A stretch of 10,901 bases of DNA. Source: Pirellulaceae bacterium (GTDB lineage: Bacteria; Planctomycetota; Planctomycetia; Pirellulales; Pirellulaceae). This document shows positions 1-10,901 of this stretch, piece by piece. Position numbers and translations under genes: made by a program. The number at the start of each line of letters is the position of its first letter. The first letter of the stretch is position 1. The notes beneath the pieces were generated by a model, which searched no databases, was not told the DNA's origin, and saw only the letters and a list, made by a program, of their open reading frames with translations. The stretch is taken from NCBI GenBank assembly GCA_013002105.1, contig JABDKS010000895.1, forward strand, positions 1-10,901. The letters are read 5' to 3'.

Positions 1-318
1 CCGGGATCGCCTTTGCCCAAATGCACCGATGGAGATTTCCGCTTTGGCGACTGCTGCATTGACTTCACCTGCCGCGTCCCAGGGCAACTTTCCCACTTCG
101 CGTGTGATCAACTTGGTAATCTCGTCCCGATTTGCGTCGATGTACTGACCATAATCCCGCACAATCTGTTCACGCTGTCGTGGATCGACCCTCCTCCAAG
201 CTTCGCCAGCGATTCGCGCCCGCTCGATGGTATCGTTGACCTGCTGGCTAGTCGTCTCGGTTCCCCTCCAAACAATGGAATCATCGATCGGGCTAGTGGT
301 TTTGATCTCAGTCGACAT
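1..318 (-). CDS. astD: AstD-like N-succinylglutamate semialdehyde dehydrogenase (N-terminal part, truncated by window edge)
   Basis: The gene starts at ATG 318-316 and stays open for 106 codons to position 1, so only the N-terminal fifth of an aldehyde dehydrogenase of about 480 residues is present. The residues match the N-terminus of AstD: an opening SPIDDSIVWRG (compare NPVSGEVLWQG in E. coli), then a helix with RARIAGEAW, R-Q-R-E-Q-I-V-R, an ITREVGKLPWDAAGEV segment (compare IARETGKPRWEAATEV), and KAEISIGAF before the edge. AstD oxidises N-succinylglutamate 5-semialdehyde to succinylglutamate in the cytoplasm, the fourth step of arginine catabolism by the succinyltransferase route. The NAD site and catalytic Cys and Glu lie outside the window, so activity cannot be judged. 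No clear SD precedes the ATG. The sulfatase gene ends 51 bp upstream on the same strand. Membership of the aldehyde dehydrogenase superfamily is firm; the exact substrate is inferred. Confidence 0.72.
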   Translation of the reverse strand, partial: MSTEIKTTSPIDDSIVWRGTETTSQQVNDTIERARIAGEAWRRVDPRQREQIVRDYGQYIDANRDEITKLITREVGKLPWDAAGEVNAAVAKAEISIGAFGQRRSR

Positions 319-369
319 GTCGTTTTCTCAGCGGCAAAAAGGTCTCATCATTGGATCACAATCGAAGCA

Positions 370-1713
370 CTATTGCTGACTCATCTGTTGCACGAGGTCG
401 GGATGCCGACTCGCGAGATTGTTTGTTTCGTTTGGGTCGTTCGACAGATCAAATAACATCGGTTCTTGCTCGGGCGGCTGTACGAATTTCCAATCGCCCT
501 GACGAACCGCCAACCACGATTTTCGATCGAGGGACTGGTGGGCGGCTGTTTTCCATACCAAAGTGCGAGGTTTGGATGTCGATTCGTTCGGCAACAGGTC
601 GCCTCGAAGGATACCGGCAAGCGATTGACCATCGGTACGGTCTACTTCGTACCCGGTCATTTCGCCGAAGGTCGCGTACCAATCGATCGCACAGGTTACC
701 GCATCGCTTTCACTGCCAGCGGCAACCACAGCAGGCCAGCGAACAAGGCACGGTACACGAATACCTCCTTCGAAGAGCGTCGCCTTTTCGCCGCGCAGGG
801 GCTGATTGGATCCTCCATAGCGCGGGTCGCCGCCGTGATCGGTCATGAAGATCACGAGCGTGTTGTCGCGCAGCGAAAGGTCGTCGATTGTTTTCAGCAG
901 TCGCCCAATGCTCTCGTCCATGCCGACCACTTTGGCGGCGAATGATCGACGCAGCGGATCGGCAATCCCGGAGACCTTTTGTAAATCCGCGGGTTTGGGC
1001 TGCATCACGTTCTCGGGTTTGCCCTGTTGCTGGTTCCAGGCTTTGCCAAAGTGCGGCGCGTTGTAGGAGACTTGCAGGTACAGGGGCCGATCACTGGAGC
1101 GGTGCCGGCGCATGACCGCAATCGCTTCATCGGTAATCACATCGGTCGCATAGCCGTTGGTAGAAACAATCTCACGTCCGCGGTACCAATCAGGTCGGTT
1201 TCCATAATGGAGAGTAAAAAAGTCAACGCATCCGCCGGTATGTCCAAAAAAAGAATCAAAACCGTGATTCGTTGGCCAGAATTCATCGCTGCCGTGGCCC
1301 AAATGCCATTTACCGACGAGCGCAGTTTGGTAACCGACCGCCTGCAGATGCGAAACGAACGTTCGCTCAGTGCGTCGTAAGCCACGCTGCGCATCGGCGG
1401 CTTCCATGAACATCAACGCGCTCAACAGTTCATCTTGCGACCGATGGGGATACTGGCCCGTCAACAAGCCAAACCGCGAGGGCGTACAGATACTGCTGGC
1501 AGCATAAAACTGATTGAATTTCATACCGTCCTTGGCAAGCGAATCAATATGCGGTGTCGCGATCTCGCTGCCGTAGCAACCGACGTCATGAACACCTTGG
1601 TCGTCGGTGAAAATCATCAGGATATCGGGATGGTCGGCCCCCCAACTGTGAGCGGCAAGCAGCCCCACTGAGAGAACAGTCAGTAGCGGCTGGAAGAGCG
1701 TGGGACGGAGCAT
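370..1713 (-). CDS. Secreted type I (formylglycine-dependent) sulfatase
   Basis: 447 residues. Residues 1-26 form a signal peptide ending in A-H-S-W-G-A. Metal-site aspartates D37-D38 sit in I-F-T-D-D-Q-G. The sulfatase signature C-T-P-S-R at 76-80 supplies Cys76 (codon 1486-1488), expected to be converted to C-alpha-formylglycine, the catalytic nucleophile. G-K-W-H-L-G-H at 134-140 gives the conserved Lys135 and His137. Downstream are N-A-P-H-F, a second metal motif T-D-H-G-G, and G-E-K-A-T-L-F-E-G-G-I-R-V-P, typical of the arylsulfatase (S1) family. The family hydrolyses sulfate esters, in planctomycetes mostly on algal or other marine polysaccharides; the export signal places it in the periplasm or outside. 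The maturation enzyme is not in this window and the substrate cannot be read from sequence. The start has no SD but is the only one giving a full signal peptide. It diverges from the CVSCH-protein gene across 166 bp. Confidence 0.95.
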   Translation of the reverse strand: MLRPTLFQPLLTVLSVGLLAAHSWGADHPDILMIFTDDQGVHDVGCYGSEIATPHIDSLAKDGMKFNQFYAASSICTPSRFGLLTGQYPHRSQDELLSALMFMEAADAQRGLRRTERTFVSHLQAVGYQTALVGKWHLGHGSDEFWPTNHGFDSFFGHTGGCVDFFTLHYGNRPDWYRGREIVSTNGYATDVITDEAIAVMRRHRSSDRPLYLQVSYNAPHFGKAWNQQQGKPENVMQPKPADLQKVSGIADPLRRSFAAKVVGMDESIGRLLKTIDDLSLRDNTLVIFMTDHGGDPRYGGSNQPLRGEKATLFEGGIRVPCLVRWPAVVAAGSESDAVTCAIDWYATFGEMTGYEVDRTDGQSLAGILRGDLLPNESTSKPRTLVWKTAAHQSLDRKSWLAVRQGDWKFVQPPEQEPMLFDLSNDPNETNNLASRHPDLVQQMSQQ

Positions 1714-1879
1714 TGAGTTTGGTCTTGCGGATTAGTTCGAACTAGGAATCGGGACTTGCACGTAATGGACCTATTAAAGCTTATCGAATGCTTCGCATCG
1801 GTGACGCAATCGGTTGGATTCTTTCAAATTCGTTTGGTTGTTTGGTTCGACGGGTCAGTCCGTTCGTTAATCTGGGTGC
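1714..1879. other. Divergent intergenic region with a 12-bp palindrome
   Basis: This 166-bp region separates the sulfatase (minus) from the CVSCH/prenyltransferase-repeat gene (plus), so it should hold promoters for both. The only distinct element I see is a perfect 12-bp palindrome, TAGTTCGAACTA, at 1733-1744, 20 bp upstream of the sulfatase start codon. No convincing -35/-10 pair stood out on either strand. The role as operator is a guess; a 12-bp palindrome is expected a few times by chance in a window of this size. Confidence 0.3.
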
Positions 1880-2881
1880 ATGTCTGCACTGCGAAATTCA
1901 ATCATGATTTGGGGCCTTCTGCCAGCGCTGGTCGCAAGCACCGTTACTGCTGGTGACGTCCAGCAGGCCGAACCCGGATCGGTTGCAACGGATGTTCAAG
2001 CCGCTGTCGAACGCGCCGTCCCGTACTTGAAGGCCGAAGGGCAGACATGGATGGACAAGCGTGGCTGTGTATCGTGCCACCAAGTGCCGTTCATGATTTG
2101 GAGTTTGACGTCTGCTAATGAGCATGGTTTTGATGTCAGTCGCGAGGAGTTGGACCAGTGGCAATCGTGGTCCACCGATGTCGTCAATTTCGTAAAACCC
2201 GAACAGAAGGAGAACGTGGACGTTGAAAAAACTTTGACGTCCAACATTGACACCATGACATCGCTGATGATGGCGATGGATCCCTTCGACGGACAGCGAC
2301 AGTGGACCGAGACGTTTGCCGACGCGTTGATCGCCAATCAGGAGGAGTCGGGGACTTGGAAGCCGTGTGGTCAACTGCCGCTGCAAAAACGTCCCAGTGA
2401 AGAAACAACGCGCGTGACCACGATCTGGGCACTCTTGGCGCTGCAAAATCAGGGCAGTACATGGCCGAAGCAAACGTCTGCGTTAGAAAAGATCGACGCA
2501 GGTGGGGAGGCGAAGTCGACTGAATGGTGGGCCAGCCGACTATTGCTTGCACTTGCGCGCAACGAACGAAATGTAGTCTCAAGGTTGCGAAATACATTGC
2601 TCGAGCAGCAAAACGGCGATGGCGGTTGGGGATGGATCGTTGGCGAAGCGAGCGATGCGCTGGGAACAGGATTGGCGCTTTACGCATTGAAACGATGCGA
2701 TGACATGCCGGCGATCACCACCGCATCGAAGCGGGCCACGAAGTTTCTGATATCGACTCAAAAGGACGACGGTTCCTGGACGGTCAATGGAACCAAAAGA
2801 GCGACCAAGGCTAAGCCGACTCCGACGGCCAACTATTGGGGGACGGCTTGGGCCGTGATCGCACTGCTGCAGGCGGACTGA
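1880..2881 (+). CDS. Exported prenyltransferase/squalene-cyclase-repeat protein with one haem c-type CxxCH motif
   Basis: 333 residues. Residues 1-24 form a signal peptide ending V-T-A before G25. A C-V-S-C-H motif at 63-67 fits covalent c-type haem attachment and would need export, as the signal peptide predicts. It is followed by QVPFMIWSL (68-76). The rest resembles the alpha-alpha toroid of terpenoid cyclases and prenyltransferases, with three QW-type motifs (Q-x4-5-G-x-W): 154-160, 244-250 and 294-300. The D-x-D-D catalytic acid motif of squalene-hopene cyclase is absent and the protein is half that enzyme's length, so cyclase activity is unlikely. A role in periplasmic electron transfer or binding is inferred only. 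Planctomycetes carry many paralogues combining CxxCH with these repeats, usually of unknown function. ATG 1880 is chosen because it opens the signal peptide. The DUF1080 gene follows 79 bp downstream on the same strand. Confidence 0.85.
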   Translation: MSALRNSIMIWGLLPALVASTVTAGDVQQAEPGSVATDVQAAVERAVPYLKAEGQTWMDKRGCVSCHQVPFMIWSLTSANEHGFDVSREELDQWQSWSTDVVNFVKPEQKENVDVEKTLTSNIDTMTSLMMAMDPFDGQRQWTETFADALIANQEESGTWKPCGQLPLQKRPSEETTRVTTIWALLALQNQGSTWPKQTSALEKIDAGGEAKSTEWWASRLLLALARNERNVVSRLRNTLLEQQNGDGGWGWIVGEASDALGTGLALYALKRCDDMPAITTASKRATKFLISTQKDDGSWTVNGTKRATKAKPTPTANYWGTAWAVIALLQAD

Positions 2882-2950
2882 GAGCCGCCCACTAAGTAGG
2901 CAGCGTTGAGCGAGTAGAATGCACACGACGATTTTTATCATTCGCTTTCT

Positions 2951-2955
2951 GGAAG
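2951..2955 (+). promoter_or_regulatory. Ribosome binding site deciding the DUF1080 gene start
   Basis: GGAAG lies five bases before ATG 2961. It favours this start over the in-frame upstream ATG at 2919, which would add 14 residues in front of an otherwise standard signal peptide. Confidence 0.6.
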
Positions 2956-2960
2956 ACGTT

Positions 2961-3668
2961 ATGTACTGGCGTTCGGTTGTGTTGGGTTTGGCTTGGTTCG
3001 CTCTGGCTGCGGCATCTGTTGCGCAGGAGCGTGCATTTATCGACGGAACTGGACCGGGTTGGGTCACGCTGGGGCAGCAGGACTTCGAGCGTGTCAACGG
3101 CGATGATCAGACGATGACCTGGAGCGACGATGGCGTGCTCTGCAGCGGCCGGCCGATCGGTGTGACGAAAACCAAGAAGAAGTACAAGAACTTTGAGTTG
3201 GTGATTCAATGGCAACATCAGAAGTCGGCAGGTAACTCCGGTGTGTTCGCGTGGGTCCCCGATTCCGCGTTGAAAGATTTACCACCGAACCGATTGCCCG
3301 GCGGTGGGATCGAAATTCAAATGCTCGATCACGGCTATACCCAGCAGTATGAAGAGCGTTCTGGCAAAAAGGCGGACTGGTTTTCGACCAATGGCGATAT
3401 CTTTCCGGTGGGATCGTCCAAGATGAAACCGTTTCCGCCGCTTTCGCCCAATGGCAACCGGAGTTTTCCCACCAAGGAACTGAGCCATGGTTTTGGCCAG
3501 TGGAATCACTACTACGTCCGCGCGATCAATGGCGAAGTCCGATTGTGGGTCAATGGCGAAGAAGTTTCCGGCGGAAACGAGTGTGAGCCGCGCGAGGGTT
3601 ATCTCTGTTTGGAGCACGAAGGTTCGCCGATCAAATTTCGCAACATTCGGATTCGCGAGTTGCCTTGA
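2961..3668 (+). CDS. Secreted DUF1080 protein (3-keto-disaccharide hydrolase fold)
   Basis: 235 residues from ATG 2961. Residues 1-21 form a signal peptide with a likely cut after S-V-A. The mature part is a single DUF1080 domain, a concanavalin-like beta-sandwich. Landmarks are D56-D57-G58 with L60, YKNFEL (75-80), GNSGVFAW (91-98), GGIEIQMLDHGY (115-126), WNHYYVRAINGEVRLWVNG (181-199) and a closing GYLCLEHEGSPIKFRNIRIR stretch (213-232). Some characterised members act on 3-keto-glucosides or 3-keto-disaccharides made by sugar dehydrogenases; most of the very large planctomycete set is uncharacterised. Export and its place next to a sulfatase and a haem-type protein suggest a role in extracytoplasmic glycan or glycoside breakdown, which is inference. 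An in-frame ATG at 2919 is rejected because it lacks an SD and pushes the signal peptide inward. The gene converges on tdk with 18 bp between stop codons. Confidence 0.9.
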   Translation: MYWRSVVLGLAWFALAAASVAQERAFIDGTGPGWVTLGQQDFERVNGDDQTMTWSDDGVLCSGRPIGVTKTKKKYKNFELVIQWQHQKSAGNSGVFAWVPDSALKDLPPNRLPGGGIEIQMLDHGYTQQYEERSGKKADWFSTNGDIFPVGSSKMKPFPPLSPNGNRSFPTKELSHGFGQWNHYYVRAINGEVRLWVNGEEVSGGNECEPREGYLCLEHEGSPIKFRNIRIRELP

Positions 3669-3683
3669 TCGTTCGGCGATCGA
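3665..3683. terminator. Possible short hairpin terminator between convergent genes
   Basis: A seven-pair stem with one G-U wobble (3665-3671 with 3677-3683) and a five-base loop TTCGG lies over the DUF1080 stop codon, followed on the plus strand by GATTTATT. It fills the 18-bp gap between the DUF1080 and tdk stops. The stem is short and the T tract interrupted, so termination here is only a suggestion. Confidence 0.3.
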
Positions 3684-3686
3684 GAT

Positions 3687-4307
3687 TTATTGCATTGCAT
3701 CGAGCAGAGGTAATTCGTCGCTGCGGCGCTCGGACATGCCTTCTTTGAAGTGCTGTCGGCAGACGGAGACGTATCGGTCATTTCCGCCGATCTGAATTTG
3801 CTGACCATCCTTGATGGCGTGGCCTTTGGCATCCATTCGCAACACCATCGTTGCTTTGCTGCCGCAATGACAAATGGTTTTGATCTCCGACAAATTGTCG
3901 GCCCACGCCAACAGTTCCGCGCTGCCCTCGAACAGTTTGCCTTGGAAATCAGTCCGTAGACCATAAGCAAGCACCGGGATATTCAGTTGGTCGCAAATAT
4001 CGCTCAGTTGATGAACTTGGCGTTTGGTCAAAAATTGTGCTTCATCCACTAGTACACAATCGATCGATGACTGTTCATGCCGCTTGGAGACAGTAAAAAA
4101 AAGGTTGTCCGAAATATTAAATGTCACCGCGTCTGCTTCGATCCCAATCCGTGAGGTTACTTTGCCCGCTTTTTCACGCGTGTCGATCTCTGGCAGCAAG
4201 ATAATCGTGTGCATGCCACGTTTGCGATAGTTGTAACTGGACTGCAGCAAGATCGTGGATTTGCCAGCGTTCATCGCGGAATAGTAGAAGTAGAGCTTGG
4301 CGGCCAT
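3687..4307 (-). CDS. tdk: Thymidine kinase (type II, zinc-containing)
   Basis: 206 residues from ATG 4307-4305, the normal length for this family. It phosphorylates thymidine with ATP to dTMP in the pyrimidine salvage pathway, in the cytoplasm. The N-terminus [16 protein letters not shown] holds the P-loop (G15-K16-S17). [10 protein letters not shown] (85-94) gives the Walker B-like Asp88 and the catalytic base Glu89. [12 protein letters not shown] (115-126) is the conserved core loop. The structural zinc site is complete: C146 and C148 (T-I-C-H-C-G), C183 and H186 (V-C-R-Q-H). The lasso region near 171-182 ([10 protein letters not shown]) binds thymidine. The frame is open for 41 further codons upstream to 4430, but that stretch has no family similarity, so the internal ATG is chosen. 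Similarity to the E. coli enzyme is unusually high over the whole length. Confidence 0.97.
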
Positions 4308-4478
4308 GGTCTGAAATGTCGGTGAAGACGATACGAGCAGCGAGGTTCCGTGGGGATTCAGTTTAACATTGACGCGAATTGATGGGAGACTTTGCGACGA
4401 CGCCTCTGAGAGAAAGTACAATTGCACCACCGTTGATGGTTTCGCTTTGAGATATTGGGTCCAAAAGGTTTGTCGCGA
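4308..4478. other. Divergent intergenic region between tdk and the FG-GAP gene
   Basis: 171 bp that must contain promoters for tdk (minus) and the FG-GAP protein gene (plus). I found no well-spaced -35/-10 pair and no strong inverted repeat. AAAAGG at 4463-4468, ten bases before ATG 4479, is a weak ribosome binding site for the plus-strand gene. Confidence 0.3.
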
Positions 4479-5624
4479 ATGTCTAGATTACTTTGCAGAA
4501 TAATCGCCAGCTCGGCGGTTGTCGCAGCAACAGCCAACGCACAGGAAACTGCATGGCAGAAACATGTTGTCCATCAAGGTGCGCAAACCATGACTGCCGT
4601 GGCAGGCGATTTCACCGGTGATGGATTGCCGGATATCATTGCCGATAGTGATCAGAAGACGCGATTGTTTGTCGCGCCGAAGTGGAACGAAGTGACGTTG
4701 TATGAACATGACGACTTTCGATCGTTTATCCACAGTGAGTGCTTCGATATCGATGGCGACGGGGATCTGGATTACATCGGCGCGCGATACAACCCCGGCT
4801 TGATCATTTGGTTGGAACAGCCCGACGCGGGCGCGACCGATCGTTGGCACCGGCGATTGATCGACGACCAAGTTCACGGCATCCACGGATTGATTCAAGG
4901 CGACGTCGACAACGATGGGAAAACCGATCTCTTGGCGACAAGCGCCCAGCCCAAACCGCCCTACCCGGAATCACTGGCGTGGTTTCGCGTGCCGGATCAC
5001 CCACGCAGCGCTGACCGTTGGACACCGAATATTTTTGCCAATCAAGATGCGCCGGGGCTGACCCATTATTTGGGTGTGGGCGACGTCGATGGCGATGGTC
5101 GCACCGACGCAGCGACCGGCGCCAAAGGCGGACCATCGGCAACGTCACCGGGAGAATGGTTTGCGTGGTGGCGGGCTCCCGAGAATCCTGAGTCAGCGTG
5201 GACAAAAAATTTGATCAGTGATCACGAACCAGGTGCGACCAACATTCACCCGGTCGACGTAAACGGCGATTCGAAGATGGATTTTATCGCGTCACGCGGG
5301 CACGGTCGCGGCGTGGTCTGGTTTGAGGCACCGCAGTGGAAACGGCACAACATTGATGCCGAGTTAAAGGAGCCGCATTGTCTGGTCGCGGTCGATATGG
5401 ACGACGACGGTGACGTGGATGCGGCGACCTGTGCATTCGGAGACAAACTGGTTGTCTGGTACGAAAACGATGGCAAAGGAAAATTTGTTCGGCACATCGT
5501 GGGCACGGATCAAGAATCCTACGACATTCGTGCAGTGGACATGGATGTCGACGGGGATTTGGACCTGTTGATCGCAGGTCGCGGCAGCAAGAATGTCGTT
5601 TGGTATCAGAATCCGCAAAAGTAA
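4479..5624 (+). CDS. Secreted FG-GAP/VCBS-repeat protein, probable seven-bladed beta-propeller
   Basis: 381 residues from ATG 4479. Residues 1-22 form a signal peptide ending A-N-A-Q. The mature protein carries seven calcium-binding loops of the D-x-D-x-D-G-x-x-D type, at about 44-52 (first loop degenerate, DFTGDGLPD), 90-98, 142-150, 202-210, 260-268 (DVNGDSKMD), 306-314 and 354-362, each followed by a hydrophobic strand. Aromatic strands such as I-I-W-L-E, W-F-A-W-W, V-V-W-F-E, V-V-W-Y-E and V-V-W-Y-Q recur between them. Seven units fit one closed seven-bladed propeller of the FG-GAP/VCBS type, with no room for an added catalytic domain. Such propellers serve in binding, adhesion or as polysaccharide lyase-like scaffolds; the role here is unknown. 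A TTG at 4455 in frame is an alternative start, but ATG 4479 begins the signal peptide cleanly. It converges on rph with 23 bp between stops. Confidence 0.88.
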
Positions 5625-5647
5625 TTTACTTGCGGTAAGACGACGCG

Positions 5648-6346
5648 TTACGACAAGGCGTCGATTTGCATTGCGGTCAGTTCTGCGATGCCCTTTTTGG
5701 CGACGCTCAGCATCTTGGATAATTGGGCGTCATCAAAGGTTGCTTCTTCGCCAGTGCCCTGGATTTCGACGAATCGACGACTCCCGGTCATAATCACGTT
5801 CATATCGACATCGGCGGCCGAATCGAGTTCGTAATCCAGGTCCAGGTTCACATCGTCGCCGACGAGTCCGACACTGATTGCGGCTACCGAATCGATCAGC
5901 GGTCCGTCACCAATTTTGCTGCCGGGAACCGCTTGTTGCACGGCGTCGGCCAAGGCGATGAACCCGCCGGTGATCGATGCGGTTCGTGTGCCTCCATCGG
6001 CTTGCAGTACATCGCAGTCGACGGTGATGGAGAATTCGCCGAGCGCTTTCAAGTCGATGATGGCTCGCAAGCTGCGACCGATTAAACGTTGTATTTCCGT
6101 AGTGCGTCCGTCGACCTTTCCGCTTCGATCACGTCGCTTGCGCGGACTCGTGCTGCCGGGCAGCATGTTGTATTCCGCGGTCACCCACCCCTTGCCTTTG
6201 CCTTCGAGCCACGGTGGCACGCTCGCTTCGAGTGACGCGGTGCACAGGACGATCGTTTTTCCGCAACGATACAGCACACTGGCTGGGTTGGATTCGAGGT
6301 AGCCGCGTTGGATTTCGACGTCGCGGAGCTGATCGGATGGTCGCAT
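5648..6346 (-). CDS. rph: Ribonuclease PH
   Basis: 232 residues. RNase PH is a phosphate-dependent 3'-5' exoribonuclease that trims tRNA 3' ends and acts as a hexamer in the cytoplasm. The start R-P-S-D-Q-L-R-D-V matches the family N-terminus, slightly shortened. [14 protein letters not shown] (53-66), [12 protein letters not shown] (84-95) and [20 protein letters not shown] (98-117) are family core. [10 protein letters not shown] (118-127) is the phosphate-binding motif with Arg121, and [13 protein letters not shown] (175-187) holds active-site Asp175 and Asp181. The residue before the first of these, usually Glu, is Leu174. It is the last gene of the arginine cluster: argF ends nine bases upstream and its stop codon TAA runs into the AAGG ribosome binding site, suggesting translational coupling. 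rdgB, which often follows rph in bacteria, is absent; downstream is a convergent unrelated gene. Confidence 0.96.
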
Positions 6347-6353
6347 GGTGAGG

Positions 6354-6357
6354 CCTT
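6354..6357 (-). promoter_or_regulatory. Ribosome binding site of rph overlapping the argF stop codon
   Basis: On the minus strand the argF stop TAA (6358-6356) continues as TAAGG, so AAGG overlaps the stop and lies seven bases before the rph ATG. This geometry usually means ribosomes finishing argF reload on rph. Confidence 0.55.
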
Positions 6358-7294
6358 AGGCTTTTACGTTTTGATCAATCCAGTCGCGATTGAGCAACCA
6401 GACGAGCAAGCCTTTTTGTGCGTGCATCCGATTACCGGCTTGCGAGATAACATCGCTTTGGTCACTGTCGATAACGCCGTTTGTGATCTCTTCGCCGCGA
6501 ACTGCGGGCAGGCAGTGCAGGACGCGGGCGTGGCTGGGGGCCGCTTTCATCAGATCTTCGTTGACCTGGTAGTCTGCGAACGCTGCCTTGCGAATTGCTG
6601 ATTCATCCTCCTGCCCCATGCTGGTCCAGACGTCGGTGTAGATCGCGTCAGCATCTTGGACAGCCTTTTTGGGATCGGTGACCTGATCAATGGCGGCTTT
6701 GGGGTAGGCTTTCATGACACGATTGACCCAATCGCTGTCCATTTCGTAGCCGCTCGGGCAGGCCAATGTGAATCGCATCTTCAGCATCGCGCAGATCAGC
6801 GCCAGCGAGTGAGCCACATTATTGCCATCACCGACAAAGACGATGTGCTTGCCATCGAGGGAGCCGAGTGATTCTTGTACCGTCAGTACATCGGCCATCG
6901 CTTGGCAAGGATGACAAAGGTCGGTCAAGCCGTTAATGATTGGCATCGCGTTGAAGCTGGCCAATTGCTGGACACTACTATGGCTCTTGGAGCGGCAGAC
7001 AACGATGTCGACAAACTGTCCCAGCACTTGGGTAAAGTCTGACGCGGCCTCCCGCTTTCCCCATCCCACATCCGCACCCAGAAACAGGCTACTGCCGCCC
7101 AGGTGGGCCATACCGGTCTCGAAACTCACTCGCGTGCGGAGACTTTGCTTTTCGAACAATAGGCCCAGCACACGTCGTTGGAGAACCTCCGGACGATCGC
7201 CAGCCTTCAACCGTGACTTCAGGTGTGCAGCAGTGGCCAGCACGCTTCGAAGTTCGTCCGGTTGGATGTCAAAGAGGGATAACAAATGTTGCAT
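6356..7294 (-). CDS. argF: Ornithine carbamoyltransferase
   Basis: 312 residues, full length. It joins carbamoyl phosphate and L-ornithine to give L-citrulline, the sixth step of arginine synthesis, as a cytoplasmic trimer. The carbamoyl-phosphate loop is S-L-R-T-R (51-55) in [13 protein letters not shown], where most family members have S-T-R-T-R. HPCQ (128-131) is the second carbamoyl-phosphate motif. [11 protein letters not shown] (153-163) is the ornithine-domain turn. D-V-W-T-S-M-G (221-227) is the ornithine-binding SMG loop, which argues against an N-acetyl- or N-succinylornithine enzyme. H-C-L-P-A (260-264) provides the catalytic Cys261. The start ATG 7294 has AAGG seven bases upstream. 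It lies 33 bp after the class III aminotransferase-like gene and nine before rph, consistent with one transcript from argB. Confidence 0.97.
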
Positions 7295-7301
7295 GATGTT
7301 G

Positions 7302-7305
7302 CCTT
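7302..7305 (-). promoter_or_regulatory. Ribosome binding site of argF
   Basis: AAGG on the minus strand, seven bases before ATG 7294. It supports this start for argF. Confidence 0.5.
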
Positions 7306-7327
7306 GCTGTAGCGACGGGCGTCGCGT

Positions 7328-8506
7328 TTAACCGTTGAGTGCTTCTGCCGTTTCTCGTTCGAGTTGTTCCATTGTTTGTCCGAATCGCTCAATCAACAAT
7401 TCACTTGACTGTTGGTCGACGTTGATGGGCAATTGGATTCGGACGGCGGTGTCACCAGCCGATTCGATCCGCAACCGGTGGTGGGCTGCCAATCGCACGA
7501 TCTCGTCGGACGCGATGTCCGTGTCGATTCCGATGGTTGTTCCCGTTGCCAATACGTCACGAACAAACTCAAAACCGCCGATACGTTCCGCCAAGGCGAC
7601 CGCAAAATCTTGCATCGATTGGGCGACGCTCTGCGGTAGATTTTGTTCCTTCATCGCTGACAGCGTGGCCAATACGGCAGCGCGTTGCATCGGATATCGA
7701 ATCGAATGGGAATCGGAAGACTGAGTCAGTTTCTGGGCACCGACAAAAATGCCGCCGCTCATGCCACCAAACAGGCCTGCTGACAAGACGACACCATCAG
7801 CCTTGATGTCGGCGATGGAGGAAAAGACAAACGGTTCACCTGAGCTGCCAAAGCTCAGTCGCGATTCGTCCACAATCAGTGCGATGCGATTTTGGTCACA
7901 GAGTTCGCGGGCTGCCTGGAGGAAGTCACTGGTCAGCGGGCGGGCGGCATCGTGAAGGTCGACCGGACAGACCAACAAACACGCGGTTTGTGGATCGACG
8001 GTGGCGCGCAGTGCATCGATATCGTTGGCTGGCACATGGGCAAACCCTGCCATCATTGGCCCATAGCCGTGATGTAGTTCAGGTCGCCCGCTGGCGGTTC
8101 GACTGGCGGCAGTTCGTCCGTGATCGCTGCCGATCAATGCGATCGTTCGATAGGCGTCGGTTTTCCAACGTCGGGCAAAACCGATGGCGGTTTCGACGGC
8201 TTCGTCAGCCGAAGCACACAGAAACGCTGATTCGGCAGCCACGTGTGTCGAGTCGCCAATCACCGCTCGCAAGGCGTTGAGGAATGTTTCTTGTGGATCG
8301 ATGCGGTCGTCGTCCGGCTGATTCGGATCCCCTAAGTAATTCTCAGCCGCCGCCGCGATCGCATCGGTAATCGCGTCGAAACCAAATCCGAACAAGCAGG
8401 AGCGACCAGCGAGCGCATCTAGAATCTCTTTTCCCTCGTCATTCACACGACGTAAGCCGACAGGTCGCGACTCGTCGGCGTCGTCTGATGGTTGTGTTTC
8501 GCTCAT
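7328..8506 (-). CDS. ArgD-like class III aminotransferase-fold protein lacking the PLP lysine (probable pseudoenzyme)
   Basis: 392 residues, the usual length of acetylornithine aminotransferase. Landmarks of the class III family are readable: C-A-S-A-D-E-A-V-E-T-A-I (97-108) at the PLP-phosphate turn (N-S-G-A-E-A-N-E-A-A in ArgD); D-H-G-R-T (128-132) at F-H-G-R-T; G-F-A-H-V-P-A-N-D-I-D-A-L (154-166); I-V-D-E-S (211-215) with the pyridine-binding Asp213; and Arg356 near the C-terminus where ArgD binds the substrate carboxylate. The segment that should read L-A-K-A-L-G-G-G is L-S-A-G-L-F-G-G (241-248), so the Schiff-base lysine is replaced by Ala243 (codon GCA, 7778-7780). The G-N-P-L-A motif has also become R-Y-P-M-Q-R. 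The reading frame is intact, so this is not a decayed pseudogene. Position between argB and argF is the classic argD place, but normal transamination is not expected. Function is unknown: a regulatory or scaffolding partner, or altered chemistry. AGGA lies seven bases before the ATG. Confidence 0.85.
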   Translation of the reverse strand: MSETQPSDDADESRPVGLRRVNDEGKEILDALAGRSCLFGFGFDAITDAIAAAAENYLGDPNQPDDDRIDPQETFLNALRAVIGDSTHVAAESAFLCASADEAVETAIGFARRWKTDAYRTIALIGSDHGRTAASRTASGRPELHHGYGPMMAGFAHVPANDIDALRATVDPQTACLLVCPVDLHDAARPLTSDFLQAARELCDQNRIALIVDESRLSFGSSGEPFVFSSIADIKADGVVLSAGLFGGMSGGIFVGAQKLTQSSDSHSIRYPMQRAAVLATLSAMKEQNLPQSVAQSMQDFAVALAERIGGFEFVRDVLATGTTIGIDTDIASDEIVRLAAHHRLRIESAGDTAVRIQLPINVDQQSSELLIERFGQTMEQLERETAEALNG

Positions 8507-8603
8507 CGATTCATCCTGATTGCGGAGCCAGTACGGAAATGGGAAAGAAGGAGGTCACAGGTGGGCGGAGGAAGGTTCGCGAGGATCGGCAAGCAGTGAG
8601 GCA
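8507..8603. other. Spacer between argB and the ArgD-like gene, strongly purine-biased on the plus strand
   Basis: 97 bp, the largest gap inside the arginine cluster. The transcript strand is pyrimidine-rich in the middle and contains ACCUCCUU (complement of 8548-8555), matching the 3' end of 16S rRNA. No terminator hairpin or second promoter is evident, so read-through from argB is plausible but not shown. Confidence 0.35.
8514..8517 (-). promoter_or_regulatory. Ribosome binding site of the ArgD-like gene
   Basis: AGGA on the minus strand, seven bases upstream of ATG 8506. This is among the better SD sequences in the window and supports active translation of the lysine-less ArgD homologue. 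Confidence 0.55.
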
Positions 8604-9530
8604 CTACTTGCGAATCTCCGTTCCCACTCCACTGGTCGTGAAAATTTCTAGCAACAGAGAATGCCGTAGCTGCCCGTCCACGATGTGTACTTTCTGAACA
8701 CCACGGCCGAGTGTCTCCAAACAGGCTTCGACCTTGGGGATCATGCCGGCGTCGATCGTGCCATCGGAGATCAACTCACGCGCTTCTTGTGCGGTCAGTG
8801 AATGAATGATCGTATCGGGATCTTCTTTGTCGCGACGAACGCCATTGACGTCAGAGAGGAAGACCAGCTTTTCGGCACCCAGAGATTGAGCGACCGCCAT
8901 GGCGGCGGTGTCAGCATTGACGTTGTAGTATTCGCCGTCGGGGCCTTCGCACATCGATGGGATCACTGGAACTTGATCGGTATACGAGAGGCCTTCGATC
9001 ACACTACGATCGACACGGGTGACGTGTCCGACCGAGCCCAAGTCTTCGCCGCTTGGCAGTTGGAGTTTTTCGCCAAACAAAACGTTGGTGGTATGAAACG
9101 ACAGGTTCATTGCGCGACCACCGAGTCGCTCAATTTCTTCGGTTAAGAAAACATTTAAGTCACCGGCCAGGACTTTGGTCACGACCTGCAGTGTTTTGTC
9201 GTCTGTATAACGCCGGCCGTGTATGAAATTGGGTTCAATATTGGCTTCAGCCAGTGCACGGTTGATGGCCTTGCCCCCACCGTGTACCAAGACTGGCTTC
9301 ATGCCGACGGTTTCCATGAAAATCACATCCAGCAGGATGTGCATCAAGGCTTCTTCGTTGTCCACCACGCTGCCGCCAAGTTTGATGACGGTGGTCTTGC
9401 CGCGAAACTTCCGAATCCAGCCCATCGCTTCGATCAGCGTATTGGCCTTGGTGATCGCTTCTTGCACGCTGAATTCTCTGTCTGTATCGACTCCAAAAGG
9501 AGTCTGGGTCGCGCCACCACAGAAAGTCAT
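8604..9530 (-). CDS. argB: Acetylglutamate kinase (arginine-sensitive type)
   Basis: 308 residues from ATG 9530. It phosphorylates N-acetyl-L-glutamate with ATP, the second and usually controlling step of arginine synthesis, in the cytoplasm. Landmarks are V-I-K-L-G-G-S (48-54) with catalytic Lys50, V-H-G-G-G-K-A-I-N (82-90), [14 protein letters not shown] and F-L-S-D-V-N-G-V. An N-terminal helix (about 21-43, V-Q-E-A-I onward) precedes the first strand. E. coli ArgB lacks it, whereas arginine-inhibited hexameric enzymes have it. The C-terminal V-H-I-V-D-G-Q and [13 protein letters not shown] also fit the arginine-binding type, so feedback inhibition by arginine is likely. H-G-G-G is followed by K rather than the usual P. 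The start is uncertain: ATG 9530 has no SD, and an in-frame GTG at 9467 would remove 21 residues just ahead of the helix. It heads the arginine cluster and diverges from proC. Confidence 0.96.
9489..9504. repeat. Perfect 6-bp hairpin near the argB 5' end
   Basis: GACTCC-AAAA-GGAGTC is a perfect inverted repeat with a four-base loop. It lies inside argB if translation starts at ATG 9530, but in the 5' leader if it starts at GTG 9467. It may be a chance feature. Confidence 0.35.
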
Positions 9531-9662
9531 ACGGATTGCCAGTCAGGTGGTGATTTTGGGGGGAATGTCGGGAATCGGAAAAACCGATCAATTTAGAGGT
9601 GGTCAGCAAGAGGGTCAATTGAGAACAATGGTCTGCCGCACCGTAAAACACGAGAAGATTGA
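9531..9662. promoter_or_regulatory. Shared divergent control region of argB and proC
   Basis: 132 bp between the argB (minus) and proC (plus) starts, expected to hold both promoters. A small inverted repeat ATCGG-AAAAA-CCGAT occupies 9574-9588. GAGAAG at 9652-9657 is a likely ribosome binding site for proC. No sequence I could confidently call an ArgR box was seen, and the -35/-10 elements are not clear. Confidence 0.4.
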
Positions 9663-10472
9663 ATGAACAAGATGCAATTAGCAGTCGTCGGAGGCGGTCA
9701 GATGGGCCGAGCGTTGGTAGGCGGCATGCTGGCCAGTAACGTTTTGACCCCGCAAAACGCACATATCGTCGAGCCAAACGGCGAAAGTCAGGCATGGTGG
9801 AAAGAGCACTATCCAAACGTTGCCATCGGTGACGATTTGTCGGCAGCCGTAAAAAAATCTGACACCGTCCTGTTTGCCGTCAAGCCAAACGTGTTGCCGC
9901 ACGTCGCCACTCAACCGACGCCTTTCTGGTCCGGAAAGCTGGTTGTCTCGATCGCCGCGGGTGTCAGCATCGCCAAATTGTGCTCCTGGGTCGGGCACCA
10001 GCGTGTCGTACGAGTCATGCCGAATACACCAAGTCTGGTCGGGGCCGGTGCCAGTGCGTTTTGCATCGGAAGCGACGTGACCAAGGGGGATGTTGATGCG
10101 ATCACATCGATGCTCAGCAGTGTCGGAATGGCGGTCGAAGTGAACGAGTCGCAAATGGATGCTGTCACCGGGCTGAGCGGATCAGGACCGGCCTATGTCT
10201 GCCTGATCATCGAGGCGCTGGCCGACGGCGGTGTTTTGACTGGGTTGCCGCGACCGTTGGCGATGAAGCTGGCAACGCAGACCGTGTTGGGGGCGGCCAA
10301 GATGGTTGCCGAAACGGGGCGACATCCCGGTGAGCTCAAGGACGCTGTGGCGAGTCCCGGTGGCACGACCATTGCCGCTTTGAAGGTGCTGGAACAAAAT
10401 GGTGTTCGCGGAGCACTGATCGAAGCGGTCAAGGCGTCGGCAAATCGAAGTCGCGAACTAGGCCAAGAGTAG
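9663..10472 (+). CDS. proC: Pyrroline-5-carboxylate reductase
   Basis: 269 residues, normal length. It reduces 1-pyrroline-5-carboxylate to L-proline with NAD(P)H, the last step of proline synthesis, in the cytoplasm. A Rossmann start A-V-V-G-G-G-Q-M-G (7-15) binds the dinucleotide, and F-A-V-K-P-N (71-76) and V-S-I-A-A-G (95-100) follow the family. R-V-M-P-N-T-P (117-123) and the C-terminal signature T-G-L-S-G-S-G-P-A-Y (169-178), then D-A-V-A-S-P-G-G-T-T (227-236), are diagnostic of the dimerisation and substrate domain. ATG 9663 has GAGAAG five bases upstream; ATG 9672 (Met4) is a close alternative that would give the standard short N-terminus. proC diverges from argB, so proline and arginine synthesis genes share one control region. 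The next plus-strand gene begins 93 bp downstream. Confidence 0.97.
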   Translation: MNKMQLAVVGGGQMGRALVGGMLASNVLTPQNAHIVEPNGESQAWWKEHYPNVAIGDDLSAAVKKSDTVLFAVKPNVLPHVATQPTPFWSGKLVVSIAAGVSIAKLCSWVGHQRVVRVMPNTPSLVGAGASAFCIGSDVTKGDVDAITSMLSSVGMAVEVNESQMDAVTGLSGSGPAYVCLIIEALADGGVLTGLPRPLAMKLATQTVLGAAKMVAETGRHPGELKDAVASPGGTTIAALKVLEQNGVRGALIEAVKASANRSRELGQE

Positions 10473-10565
10473 CACGGGTGCGGGCGACTGCCGCAAAACC
10501 AATCACGCACGCAATCAATTTTTTGTCACAGTAAAAATCCTACCGACGTATCACAAAGATCAAAG

Positions 10566-10799
10566 ATGGACACACCAATCATCATTTTGGATGACAAGCA
10601 TGTTCCGCTTTACCGGATTGTTTGGATCAGCGACGTTCCGCATTTTTGCGGTGAAGACGATTGCATGCACGAAGGAGATTACGAAGTCCGATTGGACGTG
10701 GACGATTCCCTCTGGATCAGCGGCGACGGTCGCGACCGCGTGGTCGCGGCGCTGACACGATGGTGCCAAGATCCAAGCGGTGAAAGTGGTCATCATTGA
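10566..10799 (+). CDS. Small acidic hypothetical protein with an H-x-C-x4-C-x-H cluster
   Basis: 77 residues; I do not recognise the family. The composition is strongly acidic, with no signal peptide or membrane segment, so it is probably cytoplasmic. Residues 4-8 and 16-21 look like short beta strands. H26-x-C28-x4-C33-x-H35 (in P-H-F-C-G-E-D-D-C-M-H) could bind a metal such as zinc. The remainder reads as a beta strand pair (39-51) and a helix (56-67). The protein ends with Gly-His-His. It sits 93 bp after proC on the same strand; TTGTCA at 10523-10528 in the gap could be a -35 element, but the -10 partner is poor. No SD precedes the ATG. The intact frame and orderly composition favour a real gene, though it might be spurious. 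Confidence 0.6.
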   Translation: MDTPIIILDDKHVPLYRIVWISDVPHFCGEDDCMHEGDYEVRLDVDDSLWISGDGRDRVVAALTRWCQDPSGESGHH

Positions 10800-10823
10800 T
10801 GTCATTGCGAGATTGATGTCATT
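10795..10823 (+). repeat. Two 12-bp direct repeats after the small hypothetical gene
   Basis: ATTGATGTCATT occurs at 10795-10806 and again at 10812-10823, a 17-bp period. The first copy includes the stop codon of the small gene. Function unknown; it may be a trace of local duplication. Confidence 0.45.
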
Positions 10824-10862
10824 TCTAGAGCATTTTCACTTAATACGTGGGATCAATCGTAG

Positions 10863-10901
10863 GCCAGGACCTGTCCTGGCGCAGCTGTGCCAGGACAGGT
10901 C
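10863..10901. repeat. GC-rich palindromic element, REP-like, cut by the right window edge
   Basis: GACCTGTCCTGGC (10868-10880) and its exact reverse complement GCCAGGACAGGTC (10889-10901) form a 13-bp perfect stem around the 8-base loop GCAGCTGT. An overlapping second palindrome, GCCAGGAC-CT-GTCCTGGC (10863-10880), means the 8-bp arm occurs three times and allows alternative hairpins. The element could continue past the window. The structure fits an intergenic REP-type repeat or a strong transcription end for the genes before it; no T tract is visible within the window. Confidence 0.7.

Follow-up and report, generated by a model that had tools for sequence, protein, structure and literature searches.

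A lysine-less ArgD homolog encoded between argB and argF in Pirellulaceae and the probable displacement of ArgD by a second class III aminotransferase

The arginine gene run and its argD slot

The contig JABDKS010000895.1 of a Pirellulaceae bacterium (assembly GCA_013002105.1) was analysed over positions 1 to 10,901 (10,901 nucleotides, hereafter the window) and encodes, between the arginine biosynthesis genes argB and argF, a homolog of the N-acetylornithine aminotransferase ArgD in which the lysine that forms the Schiff base with pyridoxal 5'-phosphate (PLP) is replaced by Ala243 (Table 1). The frame in this argD slot is open over its 392 codons, as the initial annotation had stated, and lies on the minus strand, 97 bases downstream of the end of argB and 33 bases ahead of argF; the AGGA in front of its ATG, which had been called a good Shine-Dalgarno site, is likely a fair one.

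The slot protein matches Pfam Aminotran_3 (PF00202) with 114.3 bits over residues 16-377, above the gathering score, and this profile match together with the predicted retention of the aminotransferase fold places it in the class III aminotransferase superfamily. By score it stands outside ArgD, since the top NCBIfam models are ArgD models matched far below their cut-offs (best 139.4 versus 372 bits; TIGR00707, 135.3 versus 410.05 bits) and less than 40% of the cut-off is reached for each of the best five NCBIfam matches listed.

A genome scan returned 24 loci (L001-L024), among them loci of Planctomycetes bacterium K23_9, strain CA13, Rhodopirellula maiorica SM1, Rubripirellula obstinata, Roseiconus nitratireducens and Roseimaritima sediminicola. 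As far as each contig extends, the Pirellulaceae loci show proC (divergent), argB, slot gene and argF in this order. Among L001-L019, rph follows argF in 16 of the 17 loci that extend beyond argF, the exception being L015, where 0.7 kb remains; it does not follow in L020 either. The slot gene is the fast-evolving member of the run: across L001-L019 its product is 38-54% identical to that of the window, versus 67-89% for argB and argF. The nearest relative of the window is genome G001 (argB 89%, argF 85% identity), in agreement with the argB+argF tree. A plasmid search gave 273 records below 60% identity, the five listed being class III proteins at 28%.

Table 1. Features of the window. Fractions refer to the 118-member family defined in the next section.
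Feature	Position	Strand	Details
Lysine-less slot protein with ArgD fold	7328..8506	minus	392 aa; begins with ATG, uninterrupted by stops
AGGA in front of the slot gene, likely Shine-Dalgarno site	8514..8517	minus	7 bases ahead of ATG, read from sequence
Residues 126-157, GSDHGRTAASRTASGRPELHHGYGPMMAGFAH	8036..8131	minus	Substrate-side loop of ArgD/AstC; best conserved segment of the family
Asp213-Glu214	7865..7870	minus	Asp213 aligns with the AstC residue at PLP N1; kept in 118/118
Residues 242-248, SAGLFGG	7763..7783	minus	Rebuilt lysine loop; Gly244 and Gly248 in 118/118
Ala243, codon GCA	7778..7780 (read 7780-7778)	minus	Schiff-base lysine position, by alignment column
argB, N-acetylglutamate kinase	8604..9530	minus	TIGR00761, 212.4 bits (cut-off 151.3)
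argF, ornithine carbamoyltransferase	6356..7294	minus	TIGR00658, 345 bits (cut-off 280.9)
rph, ribonuclease PH	5648..6346	minus	Gene after argF in the run; TIGR01966, 326.3 bits
proC	9663..10472	plus	Divergent, upstream of argB; TIGR00112, 285 bits; synteny
Sulfatase	370..1713	minus	Left half of the window
Protein with weak squalene-hopene-cyclase match	1880..2881		Below gathering score
3-keto-disaccharide hydrolase domain protein	2919..3668
Thymidine kinase	3687..4430	minus
FG-GAP repeat protein	4455..5624

Loss of the lysine and of the PLP site

Homologs were compared through the best 120 of 134 matched proteins, the window's own included. At the Schiff-base column these carry Ala (70), Ser (24) or Gly (24), the two exceptions being a gapped fragment and a Lys-bearing protein at 34% identity; the proteins with Ala, Ser or Gly are hereafter the 118-member family, and 18 ArgDs found at the same position, with Lys in 18/18, served as the comparison set. 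In the genome scan the lysine is absent in 21/21 Pirellulaceae loci (L001-L020, L022) and present in three loci of other groups (L021, L023, L024), and in the survey of genomes described below, the 28 slots without the lysine, which include more divergent groups, show Ala in 21, Ser in 3, Gly in 2, Glu in 1 and Gln in 1. The initial annotation had read Ala243 at the Schiff-base lysine position of ArgD and asked whether it is conserved in orthologs; the reading was confirmed, and a small residue (Ala, Ser or Gly) stands at this position in 118 of the 120 listed homologs, with Lys in none of the 28 slots. A catalytic residue has been lost throughout a conserved clade, a feature by which the slot protein qualifies as a putative pseudoenzyme. 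That Ala243 is a sequencing or assembly error, a doubt prompted by the window being a single contig, is refuted by Ala, Ser or Gly in 117 other database proteins and by the 28/28 slots without Lys in other genomes, which leave this explanation practically no probability. Long acid-rich (Glu/Asp) N-terminal extensions of about 100-300 residues precede the aminotransferase fold in several relatives (P0017, P0047, P0063, P0097, P0100 and P0111), and the window protein is without one.

The change goes beyond a single residue, as the whole lysine loop is rebuilt, from AK[A/S]LCGG in true ArgD to SAGLFGG in the window. Residues of the structure of AstC, the succinylornithine transaminase of E. coli (Lys252, Asp223, Gln226, Gly105/Ala106, Thr281 of the partner subunit, Phe138 and Arg141), were mapped onto the window protein by motif; in AstC Asp223 contacts N1 of PLP, Arg141 holds the substrate carboxylate and the Thr of the partner subunit reaches PLP (PMC3590144), and the ring-stacking role given here to Phe138 is an assignment of our own, made outside that source. 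In the 118-member family the phosphate-binding S-G-T/A of ArgD has mostly become S-A/P-D (S-A-D in the window), the putative stacking Phe of FHGRT is Asp in 116/118 (Asp128 in the window), and the EPIQGEGG glutamates are mostly lost, as is the TFGGNP loop that carries the partner Thr. The DHGRT segment (128-132), Asp213 and the altered GGNP motif described in the initial annotation are all present. The residues by which ArgD holds the PLP phosphate, stacks on the ring and reaches the partner site are missing from the slot protein, and we infer that it now functions without PLP.

These losses bear on the possibility that the slot protein is still an N-acetylornithine aminotransferase, acting through another lysine or with free PLP, as its location in the arginine run, the retention of Asp213 in 118/118 and the kept fold might suggest. 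The alignment places no other conserved lysine at the Schiff-base position, the best Lys column of the 118-member family being an insert column with 43/118, and relatives manage without the slot gene; with the phosphate, stacking, glutamate and partner-loop residues gone as well, a surviving ArgD activity is very improbable.

Other parts of the protein are held firmly. Retained in the 118-member family are Arg131 (equivalent to AstC Arg141) in 116 members, His129 in 115, Asp213 and the GPMMAGF loop, and ArgD-invariant columns are kept at 23 positions; in addition, a residue not shared by true ArgD, which is different or variable there, is conserved to at least 95% in 14 columns of the family (for instance F128D, R136, Y157H, C203 and F246). 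The fixation of new residues is not expected from relaxed drift. Both sets of columns are what a new PLP-independent enzyme would show, with a site made up of Asp128, His129, Arg131, Cys135-Arg136, His157, Cys203 and Asp213-Glu214. We consider such an enzyme unlikely, if a serious contender: among the 28 slot proteins of the survey Arg131 is present in 17, His129 in 24, Asp128 in 22 and Glu214 in 23, more variation than one catalytic site would usually show, the window has Ser at position 135 where the family consensus has Cys, and the substrate-side loop has low confidence in the predicted structure, with a predicted local distance difference test score (pLDDT) below 50 at residues 132-146 and 150-152.

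Slot states in related genomes

In 12 genomes with the lysine-less gene, ArgD over the model cut-off was found in 0/12 (best score 338 bits), and in an order-wide draw of genomes it was found in 134/146. The survey was based on 149 genomes of the family, of which 75 have ArgD over cut-off and 74 have none. The argB-argF interval was read in 62 of the 74 ArgD-less genomes, those with argB, and in 18 of the 72 ArgD genomes with argB. Among the former the slot is lysine-less in 28, empty (argB directly followed by argF) in 26 and occupied by an ArgD cut by a contig end in two (G195 and G257, both first scored as ArgD-less), with no state assigned in six (G167, G181, G194, G219, G233 and G251); in the 18 control genomes the slot protein has the lysine in 18/18. 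The initial annotation had suggested that the slot protein may pair with a true ArgD, and this found no support, as ArgD over cut-off is present in 0/12 and 0/28 lysine-less genomes, the 28 having been drawn by that cut-off from the ArgD-less set. Its expectation that the true enzyme is encoded elsewhere was supported in a more specific form: relatives do carry another class III aminotransferase elsewhere, one that derives from an operon of the arginine succinyltransferase (AST) pathway, and a second canonical ArgD over cut-off was not found.

In the slot protein tree the lysine-less proteins form one clade with a bootstrap of 100. The argB+argF tree (73 tips) places the Lys-ArgD genomes G209 and G162 beside the Roseimaritima group (support 0.87 and 0.25), a placement under which two losses of the lysine would be needed, and the long branches of the slot protein tree could group by rate; one, possibly two, losses are proposed. 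The empty state occurs at three places on the argB+argF tree, one of them inside the lysine-less group, where G132, G148, G246, G259 and G276 form a nested clade. Close relatives that carry the alternative aminotransferase have an empty slot, which makes it unlikely that the slot protein is essential throughout the group.

The rest of the acetylated route is present in most genomes, ArgC at 1e-40 in 143/149 and ArgJ in 138/149. Among the 28 lysine-less genomes ArgC is without a match in one and ArgJ in one (G006, G260), and among the 26 empty-slot genomes both are without a match in one (G252). The retention of ArgC and ArgJ indicates that this route still seems to need a transaminase. In four of the genomes without an assigned state an unusually long argB frame (453-471 aa) has a divergent, lower-scoring argC within about 1.5 kb (G181:C152, G194:C31, G233:C294 and G251:C2) and ArgJ has no match, possibly because another arginine pathway was taken up there en bloc.

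Selection on the slot gene

The ratio of nonsynonymous to synonymous substitution rates (dN/dS) was estimated by the Nei-Gojobori method on 11 slot pairs, leaving out the argB values of G248/G065 and G230/G249 (dN above 2 at 87-89% identity, artefacts) and two infinite argF dS values. The two closest slot pairs gave 0.072 (G166/G218, dS 0.26) and 0.120 (G168/G006, dS 0.62), with argB and argF at 0.013-0.061 in the same pairs, whereas six pairs of true ArgD gave 0.017-0.033 at dS 0.6-0.9. Across wider pairs the values were 0.09-0.39 for the nine remaining slot pairs (dS of at least 1) versus 0.04-0.13 for true ArgD. The slot gene is under purifying selection and is held more loosely than ArgD. 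The earlier description of a maintained pseudoenzyme stands, given the conserved lysine-less family, unbroken frames in 28/28 lysine-less slots and dN/dS well below 1.

These data also bear on whether the slot gene is a decaying, functionless relic on its way to the empty slot. Its disappearance in the clade nested among holders and a dN/dS several-fold over that of true ArgD at similar dS fit such a course. The unbroken frames, the single clade with a long internal history, the ratios of 0.07 and 0.12 in the closest pairs and the new conserved residues do not, and we regard decay as improbable.

Aminotransferase X and the AST operon

A class III aminotransferase, here called X, was present in all 12 genomes with the lysine-less gene that were surveyed for ArgD; nine copies are 66-76% identical to that of G001 (ten copies compared). 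The empty-slot genomes G132, G148 and G246 have three class III matches each at 1e-20, X among them, and in G001 two of the remaining class III proteins score above the cut-offs for BioA and HemL, X passing none of the models listed. Across the 149 family genomes X occurs at 1e-60 in 81: in 27/28 with a lysine-less slot, 25/26 with an empty slot and 20/75 with ArgD. True exceptions are G258 (lysine-less slot) and G264 (empty slot). Among the best 120 of 3062 X homologs, 12 of 13 tested true-ArgD positions are kept in 120/120, including the Lys and the partner Thr, and at the thirteenth, the initial Gly of GGN, 119 have Thr.

The distribution of X bears on one further role for the slot protein, that of a non-catalytic subunit of X, by analogy with LCB1, which works with LCB2 in serine palmitoyltransferase. 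The co-occurrence in 27/28 lysine-less-slot genomes would agree with it, but X is found equally in empty-slot genomes (25/26) and also in 20 genomes with ArgD, long branches set X far apart from the slot proteins, and the slot protein has lost the loop whose Thr reaches the PLP of the partner (PMC3590144); a subunit of this kind would be quite improbable.

In G027 and G044, which retain ArgD, X lies within the run M20 hydrolase - X - astA - astD - astB. Scores against cut-offs in G027 are 355 versus 284 bits for the AOST model, 577.6 versus 579.3 for astD, 596 versus 514 for PRK09457 and 547 versus 538 for astB; in G044 they are 580.2 versus 579.3 for astD and 557.6 versus 538.3 for astB, with astA recognised by similarity and PF04958. 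AstA (PF04958) is present in 59/149 genomes; 56 genomes have both AstA and X, and in 46 of them the two lie no more than 1.5 kb apart. X without AstA occurs in 0/20 ArgD genomes versus 25/61 ArgD-less genomes, and 24 of the 25 are represented in the tree, where they fall into 11 separate clades; in this sample X outlasts AstA only where ArgD is gone. In ten genomes X and AstA are more than 1.5 kb apart, some on different contigs (G132, G276, G144, G217, G243, G266, G274, G005, G180 and G244), and the genes of the AST run may have become separated there.

X resembles AstC in filling the aminotransferase place of the astA-astD-astB run and differs in belonging to another class III lineage, perhaps with the same role, and in the M20 hydrolase of its run. 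Since X is below the AstC cut-off, the case for its role is built on its operon and its residues. In E. coli, AstC and ArgD can stand in for each other (PMC3590144), which makes an ArgD replacement recruited from the AST pathway plausible. An M20-family hydrolase precedes X at L239:3677-4879, L243:3880-5124 and L244:3629-4873, and PRK07338 is over cut-off in G001 and G027; this hydrolase may perform the last, succinylglutamate-cleaving step of an AST-type pathway. Among the matches listed for the X-type runs there was none to an AstE model.

Proposed history and role

Based on these observations, X would originally have belonged to an AST-type arginine degradation operon. Its presence would have made ArgD dispensable, the N-acetylornithine step passing to X by non-orthologous displacement, and we infer that X makes N-acetylornithine in vivo. 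Some lineages would then have deleted argD, leaving argB directly before argF, and in the ancestor of a group including Rhodopirellula, Rubripirellula, Novipirellula, Stieleria, Roseiconus and Roseimaritima the Schiff-base lysine and most contacts to PLP would have disappeared. In that group purifying selection would have retained the slot protein, folded and independent of PLP, with a conserved site that is in part new. We hold the displacement of ArgD by X to be very probable, and the explanation as a whole, with the slot gene as a PLP-free pseudoenzyme with a site of its own, to be probable.

Several observations weigh against it. The evidence on X comes from related genomes, the window being known as one contig, and the slot-state counts and Fisher values take no account of kinship, so that independence is overstated. 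Only 20 X-bearing genomes retain ArgD, and 13 of the 74 ArgD-less genomes are without X (ten that also lack an argB match, G195 with its cut ArgD, and the exceptions G258 and G264). X scores 94 bits on TIGR03246 (astC) versus a cut-off of 609.95. Of six X regions read, a complete AST run was seen in two, both from ArgD genomes; in G001 M20, X and astA lie together with astD and astB not close by, and in the empty-slot genomes G132, G276 and G144 no AstA was near X in the stretch read. G008, G012 and G125, though not all ArgD-less genomes, have one more class III protein, which scores 320-341 bits against the ArgD model, and two of these additional proteins (L025, L026) have the Lys. Across 246 genomes of the phylum X occurs at 1e-80 in 16 and an ArgD match at 1e-115 in 106 (85 over cut-off), and many of the wider-phylum genomes lack both X and ArgD over cut-off; the complementarity of ArgD and X is claimed for this family and not phylum-wide. 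The higher dN/dS of the slot gene and the close relatives without it add to these points, and the presence of Arg131 in only 17/28 slots, together with a variable Asp128, argues against a single ligand fixed across the clade.

As to its role, the slot protein could bind a pathway ligand (acyl-ornithine, glutamate or arginine) through the old substrate loop and relay this signal to a partner encoded in its own gene run, for which ArgB and ArgF are plausible candidates. A ligand-binding regulatory partner of arginine enzymes is the likeliest of several roles, and it is put forward tentatively. A wider formulation, in which the fold shed its PLP after the takeover by X and acquired a new conserved ligand or catalytic site, acting, as a product of the arginine run, as a sensor, a regulator or a new enzyme of arginine metabolism throughout a branch of planctomycetes, is quite possible and falls a little short of probable; its site would be the family consensus Asp128-His-Gly-Arg-Thr..Cys-Arg..Ser-Gly..His157, Cys203 and Asp213-Glu214.

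Relation to known systems and significance

Compared with ArgD proper (TIGR00707; structures from S. typhimurium and T. thermophilus), the slot protein is without the Schiff-base lysine, the phosphate S-G-T, the stacking Phe and the partner Thr loop. Fold-type-I proteins without the internal-aldimine lysine have precedents: ColD uses His in its place and still uses the cofactor, and LCB1 of serine palmitoyltransferase works in a heterodimer. The slot protein shares the missing lysine with both and differs from them in that its cofactor site is mostly gone and its gene distribution indicates no required partner.

A protein-binding role for an ArgD has a precedent in Synechocystis, where ArgD binds Gun4 in an ornithine-responsive manner (PMC10783636); the abstract of that paper treats the protein as an enzyme of arginine metabolism and not as lysine-less. 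Both pseudoenzymes and non-orthologous displacement are well-known phenomena. Searches of the open-licence PMC literature returned no conserved ArgD fold that lacks a PLP site and occupies the argD position while its replacement derives from an AST operon, and no description of a lysine-less ArgD or of ArgD displacement in planctomycetes, which is no proof of absence from print.

Altogether, three states of the slot (enzyme, pseudoenzyme and nothing) within one bacterial family, together with a likely replacement, amount to a natural experiment. The annotation of the lysine-less proteins, which some sources call acetylornithine or succinyldiaminopimelate aminotransferases, is corrected, and X would fill a gap in the arginine synthesis of this group. 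Beyond this, the family offers an aminotransferase fold that has been conserved despite the loss of its cofactor site, and the new role of this fold is open to direct testing.
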